A DNA stretch of 47,570 nucleotides from Gammaproteobacteria bacterium. GTDB taxonomy: Bacteria > Pseudomonadota > Gammaproteobacteria > Thiohalomonadales > Thiohalomonadaceae. The notes beneath the pieces are model-generated. The model made no database searches and was not told the origin of the DNA. It worked only from the letters and a program-made list of their open reading frames with translations. A program made the position numbers and the translations under genes. This document shows, piece after piece, positions 3,501-34,092 of the stretch (position 1 is the first letter of the stretch; the number at the start of each line of letters is the position of its first letter). The stretch is taken from the NCBI GenBank assembly GCA_003252455.1, contig QKED01000098.1, positions 1 through 47,570 on the forward strand. The letters run 5' to 3'.

Positions 3501-5436
3501 CAGCTATCCGGTGATCCTCACCGTCGACGATGGTCAGGGGCTGGCCAACAGCCAGCACGCCGTGGCCCAGGAGGTGACCATCAACCACCCACCGGTGGCC
3601 GATGCCGGCCCCGGACGCACCGTGTGCGCGGGTGAGACCGTGCTGTTCGACGGCGGCGGCTCCTCCGACGCCGAGGGCGGGATGCTCAAGTACTTCTGGG
3701 ACTTCGGCGATGGCACCCGCGACATGGGCCTCAACCCGGCGAAGATCTACCGCACCGGCGGCGTCTTCTCCACCCTGCTCAGCGTGGTCGACGACTCCGG
3801 CATGGGCTGCGGCCGAAGCCAATCACAGGCGGTGGTTCGCGTGGTCGAATCGCCGGTGGCCGATGCCGGTCCCGACATCGAGGTGTGCGCCAACACCGAG
3901 GTGGGCTTCGACGGCAGCAACTCGCGCGACTTCGACGGCCTGGTCAACAGCTACAGTTGGCTCTTCGGTGACGGCAGCGAGGGGGGGGGACCCACCCCTA
4001 CCCACCTCTACACGAATGCCGGTCAGTATCGTGTCAAGCTGACCATCACCGGCGACCAGGTAGGTAAGTGCGATAACACCGACAGCGACGAACTACTGGT
4101 CACTGTGCGCGACGCCCCCATCGCCAGCTTCCTCGCCCCGGTGGCCGCGGCCCAGGGGGAGAAGGTCACCTTCGACGCCAGTGCCTCCAGTGCCATCACC
4201 GGCAAGCTGACCCACTGGGCCTGGGACTTCGGCGACGGCAAAGGGGCCGAGGGGGTCAAGGCGACCCACACCTTCGCCAAGCCGGGGCGCTACATGGTCG
4301 CCCTCAGCGTCAGCTCCGACGCCAAGAGCGAGTGCAACACCACCACCAGCCGTCGCGTCATCGTGATCAACGAACAGCCGGTGGTCGAGGCCGAGGTGCC
4401 GACCCTCGGCGCCGTGGGCCAACTGCTGCGCTTCGACGCCGCCGCCTCGAAGGACAACGATGGCGCCTTGGTCGCCTACCAGTGGGACTTCGGCGATGGC
4501 ACCCAGGGCTACGGGGTCGAGGTGCGCCACACCTACGCCAAGCCCGGTGCCTACCAGGTGACCCTGCACCTGCTCGACGACAGCGGCCAGGCCAACGGGA
4601 GTAACGAGGCACACTACCCGCTGAGCATCAACGCCACCCCGGTAGCCAGTTTCACCGCTCCCGCCAGCGCCTGTGTCGACAGTGAGGTGGGCTTCGACGC
4701 CAGCGCCTCCAGCGACGCCGAGGGTAAACTCAAGGGCTACAGCTGGTTGTTCGGTGACGGTGCGGTGGGTGAGGGGGTCAAGGTCGGCCACCGCTACGCC
4801 CATGCCGGGCGCTACCTCGTCACCCTGGAGGTGGACGACGGCAGCGCGGCACAGAATCACCTCGCCGAACAGGCCCTGCCGCTGCATGTCAACCAACCGC
4901 CAGTGGCCACCCTGGTGCCACCGTTGCGCAGCTGTCCTGGTGAGAAGGTGGAGTTCGATGCCTCCGCCAGCTACGACAGCGACGGGCGCATCGAGGCGTG
5001 GGAGTGGCGCTTCGGTGACGGCGAGGCCGGGAGCGGTGCCAAGGTGGGCCACGTCTATGCCAAGGCGGGTCGCTATCCGGTGAGTGTCAGTGTCCGTGAC
5101 GACTCCGGCGCCGCCTGCGCAGTGAGCGAGGCCCAGGGGGCGGTGTGGGTCAATGCCGTCCCGGTAGCCGTGGCCGGTGAAGACCTGCAGACCTTCGTCG
5201 GCGGTGTCCACGACCGGGTGCTGTTCGACGCCTCTAAGAGTAGCGACGAGGATGGCGACCCGCTCAACTACCGCTGGGAGTTCGGTGACGGTGCCAGTGC
5301 CAACGGCAAGGTGGTGAGCCATGCCTACGCCGCCCCCGGCGAGTACCGAGTGCGACTGCGCGTCAACGACGCCAGCGGCACACGCTGCGCCGATGCCACC
5401 GATGAGTTGATCGTACGTGCCGTGGCACGCCCGTAG
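562..5436 (+). CDS. Giant exported protein with 15 tandem PKD domains
   Basis: This 1624-residue protein has an N-terminal export signal (hydrophobic stretch at about residues 15-34 ending VLVSAA). A unique region follows to about residue 310. After that come 15 consecutive PKD repeats of roughly 80-90 residues. Each carries a W-x-F-G-D-G-like core, the first FGDG at residue 352 and the last near 1574; repeat 4 has DYGDG and repeat 7 has VFSDG. PKD domains are beta-sandwich modules of surface and secreted proteins, often acting as spacers or binding modules. No catalytic domain, C-terminal anchor or sorting motif is visible, and the chain ends soon after the last repeat. Some repeats contain single cysteines. 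It is followed 11 bp later by the LysM-FecR gene, so the two are probably co-transcribed. Function unknown; a surface or periplasmic scaffold is an inference. Confidence 0.9.
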   Translation: MMGGKGMVDSLRGLRRSGLVGLLLGVWSVLVSAAIPDNALMVTFGPQASSEEGDDDFIQVLLVRVPKGTSGKLYLRLYDPEVGGNVDERFGDWNTRTRFELYGGEGAMSPGLAAASPSAEALASGKLIVSREFGEDPLLDRQWITLATLDPQQGDEQPDAYLFKLVVRGVSGNDGNVFDLFLSSSDKRNLAVNGVELFSYTPTVHVPKLGRHFAEGRFFIPPGVSRLAVHNYDLENALVAFETPFRTRPQVTASGSGKWVVDNITLRDDEVNTHAAVTLATFATTLNDVTFYVTDDQERVLPIRLPFPLHQANTRPVPTVGTTIMGDCRGVVFDGSATQDAEGDNLRFEWQFGDGERGTGNPISHTYDGAGDYAVRVVVTDSSGVVGSKASLDLAVRVNLPPEAAIDSASGTTPNTPITFSAAASRDPDGQIIEYLWDFGDGSSAKGVGVSHAYSRPGLYRVNLRVRDDSGSPCAQATAEKRIWVNAAPVVDAGVDRIGAVEEPLVFAPGKVYDSDGEVVDYLWSFGDGSEGRGERIKHAYAAPGRYTVTLRVRDDSEGDNNSAQDTLQVVINDPPEPHAGVNRVVAVGETVPFDASASLDRDGKIIHYAWDYGDGHKGEGLSSRHAYAKPGRYEVTLTVQDDSKTESDTQRDNLIVVVNFPPLAKAGPDQEVNTSEVLFDASASSDEDGSLTRYSWQFGDGASAEGVQVRHVYGNPGHYPVTLAVTDDSGTSTRTTTDSLSVWVNAPPIADAGSPQSAAPGETLAFLGGASVDPDGKIVRYDWDFGDGKQAQGASVSHAFAAPGRYQVRLQVADNFPGGSALASSTTEVVVNAAPVALAGPDLLIAPGQSVELDARRSYDPDGRLVAYRWVFSDGRPDGTSAQTRQRFTEPGIYYATLSVVDDSGQANDSAEDRLRIRVNHRPTADLGEPIRSCDSTHSFDGAASFDADGDPLSYAWDFGDGSPKVQGARVRHTFVKPGSYPVILTVDDGQGLANSQHAVAQEVTINHPPVADAGPGRTVCAGETVLFDGGGSSDAEGGMLKYFWDFGDGTRDMGLNPAKIYRTGGVFSTLLSVVDDSGMGCGRSQSQAVVRVVESPVADAGPDIEVCANTEVGFDGSNSRDFDGLVNSYSWLFGDGSEGGGPTPTHLYTNAGQYRVKLTITGDQVGKCDNTDSDELLVTVRDAPIASFLAPVAAAQGEKVTFDASASSAITGKLTHWAWDFGDGKGAEGVKATHTFAKPGRYMVALSVSSDAKSECNTTTSRRVIVINEQPVVEAEVPTLGAVGQLLRFDAAASKDNDGALVAYQWDFGDGTQGYGVEVRHTYAKPGAYQVTLHLLDDSGQANGSNEAHYPLSINATPVASFTAPASACVDSEVGFDASASSDAEGKLKGYSWLFGDGAVGEGVKVGHRYAHAGRYLVTLEVDDGSAAQNHLAEQALPLHVNQPPVATLVPPLRSCPGEKVEFDASASYDSDGRIEAWEWRFGDGEAGSGAKVGHVYAKAGRYPVSVSVRDDSGAACAVSEAQGAVWVNAVPVAVAGEDLQTFVGGVHDRVLFDASKSSDEDGDPLNYRWEFGDGASANGKVVSHAYAAPGEYRVRLRVNDASGTRCADATDELIVRAVARP

Positions 5437-27806: not shown

Positions 27807-28256
27807 TTAGAAGGGGCGCGGGGGGCGCTCGCCGTTCTCCGGACGAGGTGGACGTGCACCCCCTTCGGGGCGCTCCGGGCGCGGCATCCCCTCGCTCCCT
27901 TCAGGGCGTTCGGGGCGTGGCATCTCCTCGCTGCCCTCGGGACGTGCAGGGCGTGCACCGGGCTCGGGGCGCGCGCTCTCCATCACGGCGGCGATCTCGG
28001 GGTTGGCCTCGTTGAAGCTGGCAATGGCGGCCTCGGCGTTGGCGCGGGCCTCCTCACGGGTCAGCTCACCGGCTTGGATGGCGGCCATATCGGCCTCGCG
28101 CTGGGCATCCATCTCACTACGGAAGGCATCGAGTGTGGCGATCTGAGCCTCGGTGAGGCCCAGCTCGGTGAGGTCCACCGGGGCGGCGTGCAGTACCAGC
28201 GGGCTGGAGAGGGCGAGGATCAAGGTGGCACGGGTCAAGAGTCGTTGGCTGAACAT
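27807..28256 (-). CDS. Small exported protein with Pro/Arg/Glu-rich repeat tail
   Basis: 149 residues: a signal peptide ends near LVLHA-APV (residue 25), then a helical charged domain spans about residues 27-92 (LTELGLTEAQIATLDAFRSEMDAQREAD...). A low-complexity tail follows from about residue 93, built of PRPERPEG-like units. LTEAQIATLDAFRSEMDAQ loosely recalls LTxxQ-type periplasmic proteins such as Spy/CpxP, but the similarity is too short for a firm call. AAGGAGT precedes the ATG. Monocistronic, with its own terminator. Function unknown. Confidence 0.75.
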   Translation of the reverse strand: MFSQRLLTRATLILALSSPLVLHAAPVDLTELGLTEAQIATLDAFRSEMDAQREADMAAIQAGELTREEARANAEAAIASFNEANPEIAAVMESARPEPGARPARPEGSEEMPRPERPEGSEGMPRPERPEGGARPPRPENGERPPRPF

Positions 28257-28378
28257 GGGTTACTCCTTGGCGGTCGGGTGGGGACTGGCGCTGCATATGG
28301 AATCTGCGACTACCGTGTGAATCAGGCTAGGTGGGAAAAATGCACACGTAAACCGCGTCGTGTCGATTTTGTGATGGA

Positions 28379-28418
28379 GTGTGAAAAATACCCACGCTTC
28401 CTTGCGAAAATTTCACAC
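28379..28418. promoter_or_regulatory. GTGTGAAA / TTTCACAC inverted repeat upstream of DUF6502 gene
   Basis: Two perfect 8-bp inverted half-sites (28379-28386 and 28411-28418), separated by 24 bp, lie 20 bp before the ATG of the DUF6502 gene. The 181-bp gap is AT-richer than its surroundings and also serves the divergent small exported protein. Position and symmetry fit an operator. Confidence 0.4.
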
Positions 28419-28437
28419 GTCTGCTGAGATAGGGCTC

Positions 28438-29268
28438 ATGAACGACGAAACGCCGCACAATCTCCGCCCACTGATCGGTGCCCTGCGCACCCTTCTACGG
28501 CCCCTTATCCGTCTGCTCTTGGCGCGTGGGCTCACCTATCCCATGCTGCTTGAGGAGCTCAAACGCCTCTACGTCGAGGCGGCGGATGTCGCCTTGGCCG
28601 ACTCTGGTCGGGCCCGCAACATGAGCGCGGTGAGCCTTGCCAGCGGTATCCATCGCAAGGACGTGAAGCGCCTACTCGAAAGCGATCAGGTCGATGAACG
28701 GGCCCCCAAGGGGGCGACACTGGGGGCGCGCATGTTCGGCGTCTGGTTGGGTGATGCGCGCTACCAGGACGCCCAAGGGCGCCCGTTGAGTCTGCCGCGC
28801 AACGGCCCCGACCCCAGCTTCGAGGCGCTGGTCGCCTCGGTGAATCGCGACGTGCGCCCGCGTGCAGTGTTGGAGGAGTGGCTGCGCCTCGGTTTGGTGG
28901 AGCTGAACGAGGAGAATCGCGTGGTGTTGTGCGAGGAGGCCTTCGTGCCGAGTCAGGCCGAGGAGGAGATGCTCTATTACTTTGGTCGTAACGTGCGCGA
29001 CCACATCGCCGCCGGCTGTCACAACCTCATCGATACCAGCGCCGACCCGTTGTTCGAACGCGCACTCTTCTACGACCGCCTCACCCCGGAGTCGCAGGCC
29101 AAGCTGCGTGCCGCCTCGCGTGAACAGGGCATGGCCCTGCTGCGCTCACTCAACCAGTTGGCCCACCACCTGGCCCAGCAAGACGAGGGCAAGGAGGGGG
29201 CCAATCGGCGTATCACCCTGGGCCTCTACTACTACCAGGAGCGTAGTGATGGGGAGCCCCATGCGTGA
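28438..29268 (+). CDS. DUF6502 family protein, likely DNA-binding
   Basis: 276-residue soluble protein. The N-terminal 70 residues (LARGLTYPMLLEELKRLYVEAA...MSAVSLASGIHRKDVKRLLES) read like a winged-helix or helix-turn-helix region. The remainder is helical, with DPSFEALVASVNRDVRPRAVLEEWLRLGLVE, and ends LGLYYYQER. This matches the DUF6502 family, which in my knowledge recurs beside DUF5666 proteins. Start set at ATG 28438 (MNDETPHN); upstream frame is open but non-coding. Its stop lies past the start codon of the next gene, so the two are translationally coupled. Regulatory function is an inference. Confidence 0.75.
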   Translation: MNDETPHNLRPLIGALRTLLRPLIRLLLARGLTYPMLLEELKRLYVEAADVALADSGRARNMSAVSLASGIHRKDVKRLLESDQVDERAPKGATLGARMFGVWLGDARYQDAQGRPLSLPRNGPDPSFEALVASVNRDVRPRAVLEEWLRLGLVELNEENRVVLCEEAFVPSQAEEEMLYYFGRNVRDHIAAGCHNLIDTSADPLFERALFYDRLTPESQAKLRAASREQGMALLRSLNQLAHHLAQQDEGKEGANRRITLGLYYYQERSDGEPHA

Positions 29269-30475
29269 GGTGCGTCGCTCCGTGTCCGGCCGTTGCCCCC
29301 CGCTTGGCGTTGCATTGCTCCTCTGGTCCTTGCTACTACTCGTCGGTTGCAGCGCCCTGGAGACTCCGGATGGAGCGGCGTCCCTCGGTCAGGAGACGGG
29401 GGGACGCGGCCTCGGCGGCACCGGCATGCTGGCCAGTGACCTCGGTGGTCGTGGGCTCGGTGGTACGGGGTCCACGGCGACGCGTGAGGGTGGGGGCGGC
29501 CTCGGTGGCACCGGCATCGACCCTGGCGAGGGCGAGCGCGGCCTCGGCGGGACCGGCCATGACCCTGATGAGGGCGAGCGCGGCCTCGGTGGTACCGGGC
29601 GCATGGCCCAGGGGGTGATCGGGACCCTCACCGCCTTTGGCAGTGTCTGGGTCAACGACCTGCACATCCACTACGACGCGCAGACCGACTTCTCCGCCGA
29701 CGGGCTGGCGAGCGATGCCTCGGCCCTGGCACTCGGCCAGTGGCTGCTGATCGAGACCGAGGCGGGGGAGGACGGCGCCCTGCATGCGCGCAGCATCGAG
29801 ATGCGCCACATCCTGATCGGTCCGGTGCAGACGCTGGAGGCGGACGGGAGCGTGCGTCTGCTCGACCAGCGTCTGCGTCTGGCCGCTGAGGTGGCCGTGC
29901 CGGACCCCGGCCAGTGGTTGGCCGTGAGCGGTCTGCGCACCCCCAGCGGCGAGGTGTTGGTCGACCAACTGAGCCCGGTCGAGGCGGGTGCCGCGCTGGT
30001 GCGCGGCCGGCCAGAGCAGGATGCGACGGGAGAGTGGCGCCTCGGCGCGCTTGTCTTGGAGCTGGGGCAGGGGGTCGTGTTGCAGGCCGACACCGAACAG
30101 CGCCTGCGTGGCCAGTGGCGCGAGGGGCGGTTGTGGGTCGAGGAGGCGCAGGCCGACCGCCCCAACGGTCGCCTGCAGACGCAGGAGAACTGGTCGGTGG
30201 AGGTGCGTGTGTGGCACGACAGCGAGGGTGGCCCCCACCCTCTGCTGCCCATCGACCTGGATGTGCGTCTGCCCCGTTCATTCGACCGCGAACGGGTGAT
30301 CCTGGAACTACGCCGTGACACCTTGGCCCGACCAGAACGCGGTGAGCGCCCCGCCATCGCGCCGCCACCGCGACCGCTGCGCCCGGAGCGACCGGAGTTG
30401 CTGGAGCGCTTCTATCCGCCGGTGCTGTTACCAAGGCCGCTTCCGCCGCCCTTACGCCCGCCCATACGACCCTGA
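29249..30475 (+). CDS. DUF5666 lipoprotein with GLGGTG repeats
   Basis: 408-residue predicted lipoprotein. The signal peptide ends in LLLVGC, with the lipid-modified cysteine at residue 34. Five GLGGTG motifs spaced about 15 residues apart follow (RGLGGTG...). After that come repeated small beta domains of DUF5666 type (GVIGTLTAFGSVWVNDLHIHYD; LALGQWLLIETEAGEDGALHARSIEMRH). The C-terminal 50 residues are very Pro/Arg-rich. The ATG at 29249, seven bases after AGGAG, overlaps the upstream DUF6502 gene by 20 bp; ATG 29261 is a possible alternative. Probably anchored in the outer or inner membrane facing the periplasm. Role unknown. Confidence 0.8.
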   Translation: MGSPMREVRRSVSGRCPPLGVALLLWSLLLLVGCSALETPDGAASLGQETGGRGLGGTGMLASDLGGRGLGGTGSTATREGGGGLGGTGIDPGEGERGLGGTGHDPDEGERGLGGTGRMAQGVIGTLTAFGSVWVNDLHIHYDAQTDFSADGLASDASALALGQWLLIETEAGEDGALHARSIEMRHILIGPVQTLEADGSVRLLDQRLRLAAEVAVPDPGQWLAVSGLRTPSGEVLVDQLSPVEAGAALVRGRPEQDATGEWRLGALVLELGQGVVLQADTEQRLRGQWREGRLWVEEAQADRPNGRLQTQENWSVEVRVWHDSEGGPHPLLPIDLDVRLPRSFDRERVILELRRDTLARPERGERPAIAPPPRPLRPERPELLERFYPPVLLPRPLPPPLRPPIRP

Positions 30476-30506
30476 ATAGGGCCGCACGTTTAGCCAGGAG
30501 ATATCG

Positions 30507-31286
30507 ATGCACAGCAGGATTCGACACCTGAGGGGGGTGGCTGCCCTTACCGCCCTGGGCACCACCCTGAGTGGGGTGGCGCTGGCCGATGGCAGCCTCG
30601 CCGTCGGTTATGACCGCAGTGTGGGTGACTATGGCCAGAGCGATACGACCACCATCGATAGCGTGAGTCTGGCCCTCGGCTGGCGTATCGGACGTTGGAG
30701 CCTCAAGGGCACCACCACCGGCGTTACAATGTACGGCCCGGATACCTTGGTGCTGGCGGATGGTGCCACCAGTAGCGGCAGTGGCAGTGGCGTGATGGTG
30801 CGCCAGACCGGTCAGGGCGACTCCTACCTCAGCCTCAAGCGCGCCTTGCCCTTCGGCGAGCGGCTGGGCCTTTATCTCGACCTGGGGCTGAAGGTGAAGC
30901 TCCCTACCGGCGATGTGGACAAGGGTTTGAGCACCGGTGAGGTGGACTACACCGCCCAGCTCGACCTGAGCTGGGCGCGTGGTGAGTGGATGCCCATGTT
31001 CGGGGTCGGCTATCGCGTACCGGGACAGTCCGACAGCTACGCGCCGGAGCCGGTGTGGTTGGCGAGCCTGGGGTTGCACAAGCGTATGGGGGGGGGCGGA
31101 GCCGGGGTGATCTACGACTACCGTCAGGCCTACACCACATACTCCGAGGCGGTGAGTGAGGCGATGCTCTATCGCAGCCTCAAAGTGGGTGAGGCGCACC
31201 AGTGGACCCTCTATCTCTCCACCGGCTTCACCGATAACAGCATCGACGCCGGTGCGGGGTTACAGTACCGCTACGCCTGGCGCTAG
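30507..31286 (+). CDS. Outer-membrane beta-barrel protein
   Basis: 259-residue exported protein with a signal peptide ending GVALA-DGS (about residue 27). Alternating amphipathic strands follow (LAVGYDRSVGDYG, VSLALGWRIGRWSLKG, LGLYLDLGLKVKLPTGDV, TAQLDLSWARGEWMPMFGVGY). The chain ends in an aromatic C-terminal strand, AGLQYRYAWR. This pattern fits an outer-membrane barrel of roughly 10-12 strands. It follows the DUF5666 lipoprotein by 31 bp with an AGGAGA site, so the three genes DUF6502-DUF5666-barrel form one unit. Cargo or ligand unknown. Confidence 0.75.
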   Translation: MHSRIRHLRGVAALTALGTTLSGVALADGSLAVGYDRSVGDYGQSDTTTIDSVSLALGWRIGRWSLKGTTTGVTMYGPDTLVLADGATSSGSGSGVMVRQTGQGDSYLSLKRALPFGERLGLYLDLGLKVKLPTGDVDKGLSTGEVDYTAQLDLSWARGEWMPMFGVGYRVPGQSDSYAPEPVWLASLGLHKRMGGGGAGVIYDYRQAYTTYSEAVSEAMLYRSLKVGEAHQWTLYLSTGFTDNSIDAGAGLQYRYAWR

Positions 31287-31289
31287 CCC

Positions 31290-32675
31290 TCACCCACGGT
31301 AGAGGCGGCTGCGCAGCTCCTCGCGGGCCCCGGCCAGTAAGGAGTCGCGGTCGATGCCGTCGATGATGCCCTGGATCACCTGCTTGGGCCCCCCCTCGCC
31401 CCAGCTCTTGCCGTGCGCCAGGTAGTGTTCGGCAGCGTGTCCCACGACATAGGTCGAGTAGTAGGCCACCGCCCCCTGGGTGGTGGCGGTGAGGGCCACC
31501 GAGAGGCCGCCGCTGCCGAGTTTGAGCAGTGAGGAGAGGAGATTGATCGCCCAAGTGGTGCCCATCAGCAGGGCCAGTTGGGCGATGATGGTGCGCACCA
31601 GGCCGCCCGCCTCGCGCTGATTGAGCGGCAGCCCGTAGAGCCGTGAAAGGTGCGCCACCATGCCTACATCCAGGGCGGCGGCGGCCACCAGATCGGAGGC
31701 GGCGACCGGGTTGAGCGCCACCGCCACCCCCTTGGCCAGGCAGTAGCTACGCACCAGGCGCTCGGCCAGGCCACGCTTGGCCGCCACCACGCGGCGTCCC
31801 ACCTGGTCGCTCAGCTGTGCGGCGAAGAGGCTGGCGTTGAGGGCGGCCAGGGTCTTACCCTCGTGCTCCATCAGCGCCCAGATGCGCCCTCTGAGTGCCA
31901 TCACATCCACGGCCGGACGGCGCATCTCCTCTACTTCGTTCCCGTTCGCGTCGACGCGGATTACTACCCGCTCGGCGGGGTCGGCACTACAGGTGAGGAT
32001 ATTCTCCGCCCCTACCAGCCCGGCGAGCCGCTCCCGCAGGGTGCCGAGCAGCAGCACGCGTTGTGCCTGGGTGTAGCGGTCGGCCTTGTTCAACACCACC
32101 AACAGTGGTCGGGAGAGCGCGTGTAGGCGCCGTAGCGCCTGCATCTCGCTCTCGGTGATATCACCGTCGAGCACGAACAGCAGCAGGTCGGCCCGTGCCG
32201 CCACCTCGTGGGCGATGCGCTCGCGTGCCTCGCCGTCCACCTCGTTGATACCGGGTGTGTCGATGAGAAACAGCCCCCCCTCGGCGTAGCCCTGCCAGTC
32301 GGCCATGCGGCTCTCTTTGGTCTCGCCGTGCAGCGGGCTGGTGGCGAAGCAGGGGTGGCCTAGGAGTGCGTTGAGGGTGGCCGATTTGCCGACACTGACG
32401 CGGCCGAAGACGGCAATGTGCAGGTGGCCGTGCTCCAACTTATCGAGCATCGCCTCCACCTGACGATACTCCTCGGCCAGGCCGCTGCGCACCTCCTCGG
32501 GGACACGCGTATCCTGCACCAAGGCGCGCAGGCTCTCACGGGCCAGCACCAGGTGGTGCCCTTCGGCGTCGAGCGGTGCATCGCTCTGGGGCTCAGTCGG
32601 CGTCGCGTCCGCGTTCGCGCCAGGTGTCGAGTGCCAGGCGTGCCAACGATCGCGTACGTGTTTCCAGATCGTCAC
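31290..32675 (-). CDS. Era/DUF697-type GTPase, second of a pair
   Basis: 461-residue GTPase. The G domain carries P-loop GRVSVGKSA (residues 91-99), DTPG (139-142) and NKAD (196-199), followed by a Cys-containing region that may act as a sensor. The C-terminal half has hydrophobic helices (LMGTTWAINLLSSLLKLGSGG, VAYYSTYVVGHAAEHYLA) of the DUF697 type, which would attach it to membrane. It starts at GTG 32675 with GGAGA upstream. Its first 83 bp lie inside the end of the other GTPase gene. Convergent with the barrel gene, 3 bp between stops. Cellular role unknown. Confidence 0.85.
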   Translation of the reverse strand: MTIWKHVRDRWHAWHSTPGANADATPTEPQSDAPLDAEGHHLVLARESLRALVQDTRVPEEVRSGLAEEYRQVEAMLDKLEHGHLHIAVFGRVSVGKSATLNALLGHPCFATSPLHGETKESRMADWQGYAEGGLFLIDTPGINEVDGEARERIAHEVAARADLLLFVLDGDITESEMQALRRLHALSRPLLVVLNKADRYTQAQRVLLLGTLRERLAGLVGAENILTCSADPAERVVIRVDANGNEVEEMRRPAVDVMALRGRIWALMEHEGKTLAALNASLFAAQLSDQVGRRVVAAKRGLAERLVRSYCLAKGVAVALNPVAASDLVAAAALDVGMVAHLSRLYGLPLNQREAGGLVRTIIAQLALLMGTTWAINLLSSLLKLGSGGLSVALTATTQGAVAYYSTYVVGHAAEHYLAHGKSWGEGGPKQVIQGIIDGIDRDSLLAGAREELRSRLYRG

Positions 32676-34092
32676 TTAAGGTCTCCTTGAACAACCTGGT
32701 GGCGGGGCCGGGTACCAGCTCGCCACGCCCCTCCAGGGTGCGTGCCACGGCCTTGCCGAGGCTGTCGAAGATGAGCCCGTAGGCTACCGCATGGGCCAAT
32801 CCGCCGGTGAGGGTGCCGAGCCCGGGGAACGCCTTCAGTGCATTGCCGGCCACCGCGAGCAGCAGCGGTAGGCTCTTGCCCACCTGCCCCCGTGCCTCGT
32901 CGATGAGGCGGTCGCCATCGATGCGACGCAGTTCGACGCCGTGTAGCTGGCACAATTCGTCGAGCATCTTGTAGCCGAGGTAGCCCTGGATCAGTAGGTC
33001 GGTGCCGGGGCTGACGGCGGCCATGGCCCCGAGCATGGCGCGGCGCGTGTAGCGGCGCACCAATGACTCGCCCTGAGTCTGGCGGTGGCGCTGCTCGGCG
33101 GTGTCGATCTGGCGAGCGATGAGGGTGAAAACGCTGCTGTCACGCAGCTGGTCGAGGGCCGCGGCGTCGCTGTCGATGCGCCACTGGATGGCGCGTGCCA
33201 GCGCGTCGAGGCGCGGGGGACGCTGGCGTGTGAGCCACTCCTCGCGTCCATCCGGGTAGACCTTGAGTACCTCCTCCTCGCCGCCGCTGCTGAGGGTGAC
33301 CAGATCGACCCGGTCACTCCCCGATACGCGCTGCTCCAGCCGTTGGCGCAGGGCCTGCAGCTCTTCTGGACGGTAGAGGTCGACCTTGTTGAGTGCCAGG
33401 ATGATCGGTTTGTGCAGCGCCTGAAGTTGGCCGAGGGCGGTGTACTGCTCGCGTGTCAGGTCGCCGTCCACCAGGTAGACGACGATGTGTGCACGCAATG
33501 CCTCGTGGCGCGACGCCTCATCCAGCGTGCCGCCCGCCTCGTTGAGACCGGGCAGGTCGGTGAGGATCAGCGCGTCGCCCGCCGGGCTCTCCCAACGGTA
33601 GTGGCGTACCTCGCGGGTGGTGCCGCCGCGTGGGCCGACCACCACCTCGGCCTGCGGCAGGAGCGCCGCCACCAGTGAGCTCTTGCCGGTGGAGATCTCG
33701 CCGAACAGGGCGATATGCAGCGTGCCGGTCGCGCGCCGTGCGCGGTGGCGGTCGAACTCGGCCAGCGCCTCGTGCACCTCGATACCCGCCGCCTGGGCCT
33801 GAACGAGGCGCGCCTCCAGTTCCGCCTCGCTCGGTGTACTAGCGGGCGAGGCGACCTTGGGACGCGGGGGAGGGGGGGCGAGCAGATGCCAGACCAGGTA
33901 ACCGCCGAGGAGACCGATCGCGCCCAAGGCGGCGGCGAAGAGCCAGCGCACCGGGGCCGGATAGGCGCCCAACAGTGCCCAGGTGTGCAACACCCCCTCG
34001 GTGAGGTAAAGGAGAAAGGCGGTCGCCCCGAGTAGCCCCGTGATGAGCAGGGCGACGAGCAGGATGCGCAGCGGACGTGAGGGTCGATTCAC
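32593..34092 (-). CDS. Membrane-anchored Era/DUF697-type GTPase, first of a pair
   Basis: 499-residue GTPase with two N-terminal transmembrane helices (about residues 9-30 and 49-72). A proline-rich linker leads to a G domain with GEISTGKSS (131-139), DLPG (179-182) and NKVD (235-238). The C-terminal part (about 330-470) is DUF697-like, with GAMAAVSPGTDLLIQGYLGYKMLDELCQLHGV. It starts at GTG 34092; no strong ribosome site is visible. Its distal 83 bp also encode the start of the second GTPase in another frame. The two proteins are paralogous in layout but differ in membrane topology, suggesting a heteromeric pair. Confidence 0.85.
   Translation of the reverse strand: MNRPSRPLRILLVALLITGLLGATAFLLYLTEGVLHTWALLGAYPAPVRWLFAAALGAIGLLGGYLVWHLLAPPPPRPKVASPASTPSEAELEARLVQAQAAGIEVHEALAEFDRHRARRATGTLHIALFGEISTGKSSLVAALLPQAEVVVGPRGGTTREVRHYRWESPAGDALILTDLPGLNEAGGTLDEASRHEALRAHIVVYLVDGDLTREQYTALGQLQALHKPIILALNKVDLYRPEELQALRQRLEQRVSGSDRVDLVTLSSGGEEEVLKVYPDGREEWLTRQRPPRLDALARAIQWRIDSDAAALDQLRDSSVFTLIARQIDTAEQRHRQTQGESLVRRYTRRAMLGAMAAVSPGTDLLIQGYLGYKMLDELCQLHGVELRRIDGDRLIDEARGQVGKSLPLLLAVAGNALKAFPGLGTLTGGLAHAVAYGLIFDSLGKAVARTLEGRGELVPGPATRLFKETLSDDLETRTRSLARLALDTWRERGRDAD

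Follow-up and report, generated by a model that had tools for sequence, protein, structure and literature searches.

The contig QKED01000098.1 of a Gammaproteobacteria bacterium (Thiohalomonadaceae; assembly GCA_003252455.1), 47,570 nucleotides (nt) long and referred to here in its entirety as the window, carries on its forward strand an operon of three genes, which encode a protein of the DUF6502 family, an exported lipoprotein that combines GLGGTG repeats with a DUF5666 domain, and a protein resembling an outer-membrane barrel (Table 1). This arrangement had been proposed in a preliminary description of the DNA and is confirmed by the coordinates and, for the first two genes, by Pfam. The lipoprotein gene begins with an ATG at 29261 and overlaps the TGA of the DUF6502 gene (29266-29268), and the barrel gene starts 31 nt past the lipoprotein stop. 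The window's own genome (G000) contains a single DUF6502 match, and within the helix-turn-helix (HTH) predicted in this protein, S63, G70, H72, R73, K74, and R78 are invariant in all seven sequences of alignment A2. The barrel, at 20.5 bits, falls below the Phenol_MetA_deg (PF13557) cut-off of 22. Neither DUF6502 nor PF20112 is mentioned in the literature searched (which included no bioRxiv preprints and only a minority of subscription papers), and DUF5666 is mentioned rarely, one or two times per paper, for example as a table row in the accessible part of PMC10714799.

Upstream of the DUF6502 gene lies an inverted repeat, GTGTGAAA-N24-TTTCACAC, which had been put forward as a natural operator. 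The repeat is indeed there, exact at 28379-28418; even with up to two mismatches allowed, this is its only occurrence in the window, and none of 100 shuffles contains it. Its position is right for an operator, but the unit is not a single 40-base-pair (bp) repeat. Rather, it is a 17-bp palindrome, GTGGGAA-N3-TTCCCAC, which is present in three copies (starting at 28331, 28379, and 28402), and the 40-bp repeat consists of the outer arms of the second and third of these. If transcription begins near 28438, the third copy would cover the -35 region. A promoter scan of 27900-31600 returned no sigma-70-type site.

Table 1. Features of the DUF6502 operon and its upstream region (coordinates in the window).
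Feature	Position	Strand	Remarks
Operator copy A, GTGGGAAAAATGCACAC	28331-28347		12/14 to GTGGGAA-N3-TTCCCAC
Operator copy B, GTGTGAAAAATACCCAC	28379-28395		12/14; provides the left arm of the 40-bp repeat
Operator copy C, TTGCGAAAATTTCACAC	28402-28418		11/14, weakest; provides the right arm of the 40-bp repeat
DUF6502 regulator, 276 aa	28438-29268	+	Pfam PF20112, 112.4 bits, residues 10-269, cut-off 27
Predicted HTH of DUF6502, residues 62-81	28621-28680	+	Alignment A2 and predicted structure
Exported GLGGTG-repeat/DUF5666 lipoprotein, 404 aa	29261-30475	+	Overlaps DUF6502 stop; lipobox Cys30 by eye
Five GLGGTG copies, lipoprotein residues 50-113	29408-29599	+	Motif also counted in 74 relatives
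DUF5666 domain (PF18914), lipoprotein residues 118-180	29612-29800	+	Pfam 31.4 bits, cut-off 27
Outer-membrane-barrel-like protein, 259 aa	30507-31286	+	PF13557 sub-threshold; N-terminus signal-peptide-like by eye
Divergent Pro/Arg/Glu-rich, probably secreted protein	27807-28256	-	Shares operator-bearing intergenic region with DUF6502

The palindrome recurs ahead of related genes. Of 185 genomes sampled within the class to which the window belongs, 51 contain relatives of the DUF6502 protein. The set of 80 loci used here comprises the 80 top-ranking of 553 confirmed relatives, taken from named genomes and fished mainly by their HRK[DE] helix; the 17-bp motif was derived by side-by-side reading of the upstream regions of other related loci and is independent of the 80. 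In 66 of the 80 loci, the 350 bp ahead of the gene include a site that matches at least 12/14; no such site is present in any of 77 control stretches (taken 1.1-1.5 kb upstream) or in any of 1600 shuffles. Once the window and one further locus (L031) are added, 75 of 82 upstream regions hold one to three copies at 11/14 or better, and at least 57 of 73 distances between neighboring copies fall at 27-36 or 59-65 bp. Furthermore, the best -10-like hexamer starts exactly 7 nt past the proximal copy in 35 of the 75 regions, so that the proximal copy would span roughly -36 to -20. An in-frame start codon follows the -10 by 4-10 nt in 15 of the 43 loci with a clear -10 (e.g., L107, L153, L172); this suggests that DUF6502 transcripts are leaderless in part of the loci, not as a rule, and the window start at 28438 would fit.

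The spacing of the palindrome arms follows the type of DUF6502 protein. In the first subgroup, whose recognition segments are of the GVHRKDV type, the N3 spacing is found in 55 of 80 loci, and every other spacer from 0 to 8 appears at most once. A second subgroup has mostly TGLTRKEV-type (T/S/N-RKE) recognition segments; here TGGGAW-N4-WTCCCA is present at 11/12 or better in 19 of 34 loci (39 minus 5 with duplicate upstream regions), spacers of 2, 3, 5, and 6 in none, and the shuffle rate is at most 0.6%. Five of the 34 loci had suggested the N4 pattern, and with these excluded the count is 14 of 29. The arm spacing thus shifts with the recognition-helix subgroup; i.e., site and protein co-vary. 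In addition, sites with no more than one mismatch to GTGGGAA-N3-TTCCCAC are present in all three of the same-family genomes searched that have DUF6502 of the first subgroup (three in G000, three in G004, and two in G008), while 15 genomes of the family with no DUF6502 detected have none; the partner protein with its GGTG repeats is likewise present in those three and in 0 of the 15. This comparison covers 3 versus 15 genomes, with G014 and G018, same-family genomes that have the second subgroup, outside it. A further set of 15 genomes with DUF6502 was picked mostly for good sites; 14 of these genomes have sites at this threshold, and 22 of the 27 sites are at the operon. Both the co-variation with subgroup and the way in which the presence of the site tracks DUF6502 suggest that DUF6502 itself reads the palindrome.

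The genes of the operon also recur together elsewhere, in agreement with the preliminary description. Using open reading frames (ORFs) from a home-made caller, and a choice of partner that preferred GGTG-bearing ORFs and so favored the motif, a GGTG ORF is found downstream of DUF6502 in 71 of the 80 loci and a GGSG ORF in 3 more (L112, L154, L167), or 74 in all; the other six (L130, L135, L165, L168, L181, L183) have neither downstream. When the genes are clustered without this preference, 76 of the 80 loci contain the DUF6502 cluster, 72 the partner cluster, and 47 the barrel cluster; the next family is in 12. The chosen partner overlaps the DUF6502 stop or starts no more than 5 nt after it in 55 of 80 loci. 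Partners hold 1-14 tandem copies of G[ILVM]GGTG, commonly 10-14 residues apart, and among the 311 motif copies in the 74 partners, G is found at -2 in 95%, I/L/V/M at -1 in 97%, and T in 93%. Of 48 partners scanned for DUF5666 (the window's own, four others, and 43 from the set of 74), 47 match it at E 0.01, and the last motif copy starts 6-14 residues before the domain, as seen in the 25 partners printed of the 45 with a placeable DUF5666 start. The window lipoprotein, which passes the family cut-off, consequently belongs with the DUF5666 proteins, from which it differs in the tandem GxGGTG block ahead of the domain and in the tie to DUF6502.

Barrel homologs are present, on either strand, in 52 of the 80 loci, and in 49 of the 69 with at least 2.5 kb downstream; the profile was built from the window barrel and those of L031 and L181, the last of which is itself among the 80 counted. 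Like PF13557-type outer-membrane proteins, which 12 of 27 module barrels match at E 0.01, these are predicted barrels, but they are set apart by the tie to DUF6502. L181 has DUF6502 and the barrel without a GGTG partner and without a site. Of the three-gene module originally envisaged, the regulator and the GxGGTG protein form the core, while the barrel is frequent but dispensable. In G008, the barrel gene (L035:6533-6907) is interrupted early and apparently broken, and the DUF6502 and lipoprotein genes are open. Four second-subgroup loci (L021, L022, L023, L024) have an extra lipoprotein-like gene just upstream, so that DUF6502 lies between two such genes; in L021, L023, and L024 this extra gene resembles that of the window's DUF5666 protein.

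An AlphaFold2 model of DUF6502, made with 91 sequences, has a predicted local distance difference test score (pLDDT) of 90.6 and a predicted template modeling score (pTM) of 0.80. Residues 33-84 superpose on the TetR-type HTH of 2of7 (Z 8.1, root-mean-square deviation [rmsd] 1.9, 52 aligned). The protein had been described as putatively DNA binding, and the predicted HTH agrees; a fold that does not bind DNA is contradicted by the predicted structure only. The resemblance to autoregulated repressors of the TetR/AcrR type extends to palindromic operators over the promoter and to a regulator that comes first in its own operon, but the DUF6502 operon carries an exported repeat protein and a barrel, not a pump. 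There is no Pfam TetR match at E 0.1, no TetR family is among the 25 of 35 Pfam families listed for 91 DUF6502 proteins, and the TetR structures listed as matches are confined to the HTH.

Given these findings, we propose, with a probability of about 0.72, that DUF6502 is a dimeric HTH factor that acts on the 17-bp palindrome to control its own operon, with autorepression as the simplest sign. The sequences themselves display the operon, the conserved operator, its dependence on DUF6502 in one family, and its co-variation with subgroup; from these, we infer binding, dimerization, repression, a cue, and a function in the envelope. The surface or transport module suggested in the preliminary description is likewise hypothetical. 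In this model, a DUF6502 dimer would occupy the palindromes, commonly two or three copies, over its own promoter. When bound, it would limit transcription of its own gene, of the co-translated exported GxGGTG/DUF5666 protein, and often of the barrel gene, until some cue, perhaps from the envelope, releases it from the DNA. Repression is the probable sign, given that the proximal site commonly extends over the -35 region of the predicted promoter, from about -36 to -20.

The palindrome also marks some unlinked genes for exported proteins. In the window's own genome, the relaxed pattern GTGKGAANNNTTCMCAC with up to one mismatch gives 6 sites versus 3 for a reversed control. Two of the 6 are in the window, two precede giant LEPR-XLL genes (C44:64675 and C56:26031, the latter shared with a divergent gene), one precedes an M8-like peptidase gene, and one is beside an SNF2/SWIM helicase gene. 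LEPR-XLL is rarely mentioned in the literature searched; five such genes in this genome pass the NF012209 cut-off of 17 bits, their open frames ranging from 5806 to 14112 codons (C84:83289, C56:25815, C44:64927, C56:52235, and C56:90028, three on one contig). In three of the five, a site lies 183-252 bp ahead of the LEPR motif (13, 12, and 11 of 14). The third of these sites has two mismatches to GTGKGAANNNTTCMCAC, and the three genes score 28.0, 20.2, and 22.3 bits with NF012209. If the 19 sites with up to two mismatches were placed at random, about 0.006 of them should fall in the 300 bp ahead of the five genes, the gene category having been chosen post hoc. (The own genome has 22 sites at that threshold, 3 of them in the window, and the surroundings of 7 of the other 19 were examined.) Among relatives, paired sites precede the genes of a DUF2202-like lipoprotein (G004), an EF-hand secreted protein (G008), and a di-heme-like secreted protein (G070), names that represent our reading of the sequences; in five relatives, 12 stretches, or part of the two-mismatch sites, were examined, and most single sites were intragenic and dropped. 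As judged from site placement, control by DUF6502 in its own genome probably extends to giant LEPR-XLL surface proteins and to a few further proteins that are exported. In two related genomes (L201 and L202, around 4001), a perfect 17-bp site and a second site of the TTGGGAATATTTCCCA type share one intergenic region on a contig other than that of DUF6502. In G008 (L089, around 3900-4700), a chance site is surrounded by a direct repeat of ~36 bp with unique spacers, resembling clustered regularly interspaced short palindromic repeats.

Several observations weigh against these proposals. The window's own copies are imperfect (12, 12, and 11 of 14) and fall below the one-mismatch threshold for GTGGGAA-N3-TTCCCAC, and the -10 hexamer of its operon is poor. 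A site of at least 12/14 is missing from 14 of the 80 loci, and close relatives among the 80 (many Nitrosomonas and 'Marinimicrobia' metagenome-assembled genomes) mean that the counts are not independent. In the second subgroup, 15 of 34 loci lack the N4 site, and only 13 of 27 have a GGTG ORF in the 1.5 kb that follow DUF6502. Across the 15 same-family genomes without DUF6502, a reversed-pattern control gives 26 matches versus 0 real sites, and the one-mismatch threshold also misses a two-mismatch site ahead of the G008 DUF6502 gene; in the 15 chosen genomes, one of which (G068) has no site at this threshold, the control gives 21 matches versus 27 sites. With such control totals, only the placement and the best sites are informative. 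A genome-wide regulon at two to three mismatches was rejected as uninformative, the reversed control exceeding the real matches in the own genome. In addition, two of the five LEPR-XLL genes have no site, the own-genome site C17:7142 is intragenic, and so are many of the extra sites in relatives, including L200.

A site over the -35 is also compatible with activation, and it is possible, if rather unlikely, that DUF6502 binds but activates, with distal and proximal copies recruiting RNA polymerase to a promoter that lacks a good -35. The proximal arms are poor as -35 hexamers (by eye), and the two preferred distances between neighboring copies, found in at least 57 of 73 cases, would suit such an arrangement. 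However, a palindrome centered near -28 overlaps the -35/spacer, and an operator in that position usually excludes polymerase. The layout of L079 is likewise repressor-like: TTGACG and TAAACT flank one copy, and a second copy follows closely downstream.

It is much more doubtful that another regulator binds the palindrome and that DUF6502 is a passenger of the operon with no DNA-binding activity. In favor of such a reading, the site and the DUF6502 gene only co-occur, yet the site spacing changes with the recognition-helix subgroup, the 15 same-family genomes without DUF6502 have no site with one mismatch or fewer, and an HTH is predicted in the protein itself. Furthermore, no other common family lies beside the operon, the next cluster being the one in 12 of 80 loci. 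That the upstream inverted repeats work in RNA, as an attenuator or riboswitch ahead of the coding region, is hardly credible, since the predicted -10 of many loci comes after the repeats, so that a transcript would not be expected to contain them; the palindromes are also short, and Rfam gives no match.

A structural lead to the action of DUF6502 comes from HetR, the heterocyst master regulator of cyanobacteria, which has a three-domain fold and forms an intertwined dimer. HetR is the top Foldseek match in the Protein Data Bank (PDB) for both DUF6502 models, albeit a weak one (E 0.073; E 0.062 with TM 0.33), and provides the only listed re-alignment entries near full length (Z 6.3-7.4, rmsd 10.6-11.2 Å; 4j00, Z 7.4 over 214 residues). 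The two proteins are similar in length, and by eye the C-terminal helix-strand-helix-strand order of DUF6502 resembles the HetR hood. According to the portions available of PMC4649674 and PMC4192349, HetR is autoregulated, binds GAGGGGTCTAACCCCTC, a 17-bp GGG...CCC palindrome, requires GGG-N5-CCC, and comes off DNA in response to the PatS peptide; export of PatX is treated in the portion available of PMC12756182. Autoregulation and a 17-bp GGG...CCC palindrome match those predicted for DUF6502, whereas the predicted DUF6502 sites have GGG-N7-CCC (first subgroup) or GGG-N8-CCC (second subgroup), and the RGSGR motif of the HetR system is absent from the window's partner protein.

Sequence comparisons give no support for kinship. 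An hmmsearch of the A1 profile against the PDB has no HetR at E 10. In hhalign against HetR and 114 decoys, a weak test with one HetR sequence, HetR ranks 103 (local) and 79 (global) of 116, below reversed HetR both times, and in a direct hhalign, also weak with only two near-identical HetR sequences, the probability is 0.1. HetR is not among the 25 of 35 families listed from the Pfam scan of the 91 DUF6502 proteins at E 5, and HetR relatives were not found in the plasmids or viral contigs searched. Kinship by sequence was consequently rejected, and HetR is kept as a structural lead only; domain rotation or coincidence may lie behind the weak fold match, and the likeness would be one of plan, not of membership. 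The term 'HetR-like' is not mentioned in the literature searched, and the titles listed on HetR, proteobacteria, and homolog report no HetR outside cyanobacteria. By analogy with the RGSGR-type peptide feedback of HetR, one could imagine DUF6502 as a HetR relative or analog outside cyanobacteria, with the GxGGTG partner as a multi-copy precursor of a glycine-rich feedback peptide cut out in the envelope, but we regard this as very improbable; the GxGGTG repeat may be purely structural.

The remaining neighbors lie around this module. The divergent Pro/Arg/Glu-rich protein, at 17.9 bits, is below the LTXXQ (PF07813) cut-off of 24.3. Comparable divergent Pro/Arg-rich genes are found in G004, G054, and L167, but such a gene was rejected as a general part of the module, as a strict filter finds one in 1 of 80 loci. 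In G054 (L032:1-700), the divergent gene is followed by an apparent barrel-gene start at the contig edge (by eye; tblastn E 0.098). On the reverse strand of the window, at 31290-34092, two GTPase-like genes, the first with DUF697 and MMR_HSR1 and the second recognized by eye, converge on the operon and fall outside the conserved module.

If the likeness to HetR is true, it would bear on the origin of HetR, given that the flap and hood domains are called novel folds in the part available of PMC4649674. For DUF6502, a family of unknown function, the present analysis adds a predicted role as a transcription factor and a candidate DNA site that spans the family, and it ties the family to an exported repeat protein, to a barrel, and, in one genome, to giant LEPR-XLL surface proteins.

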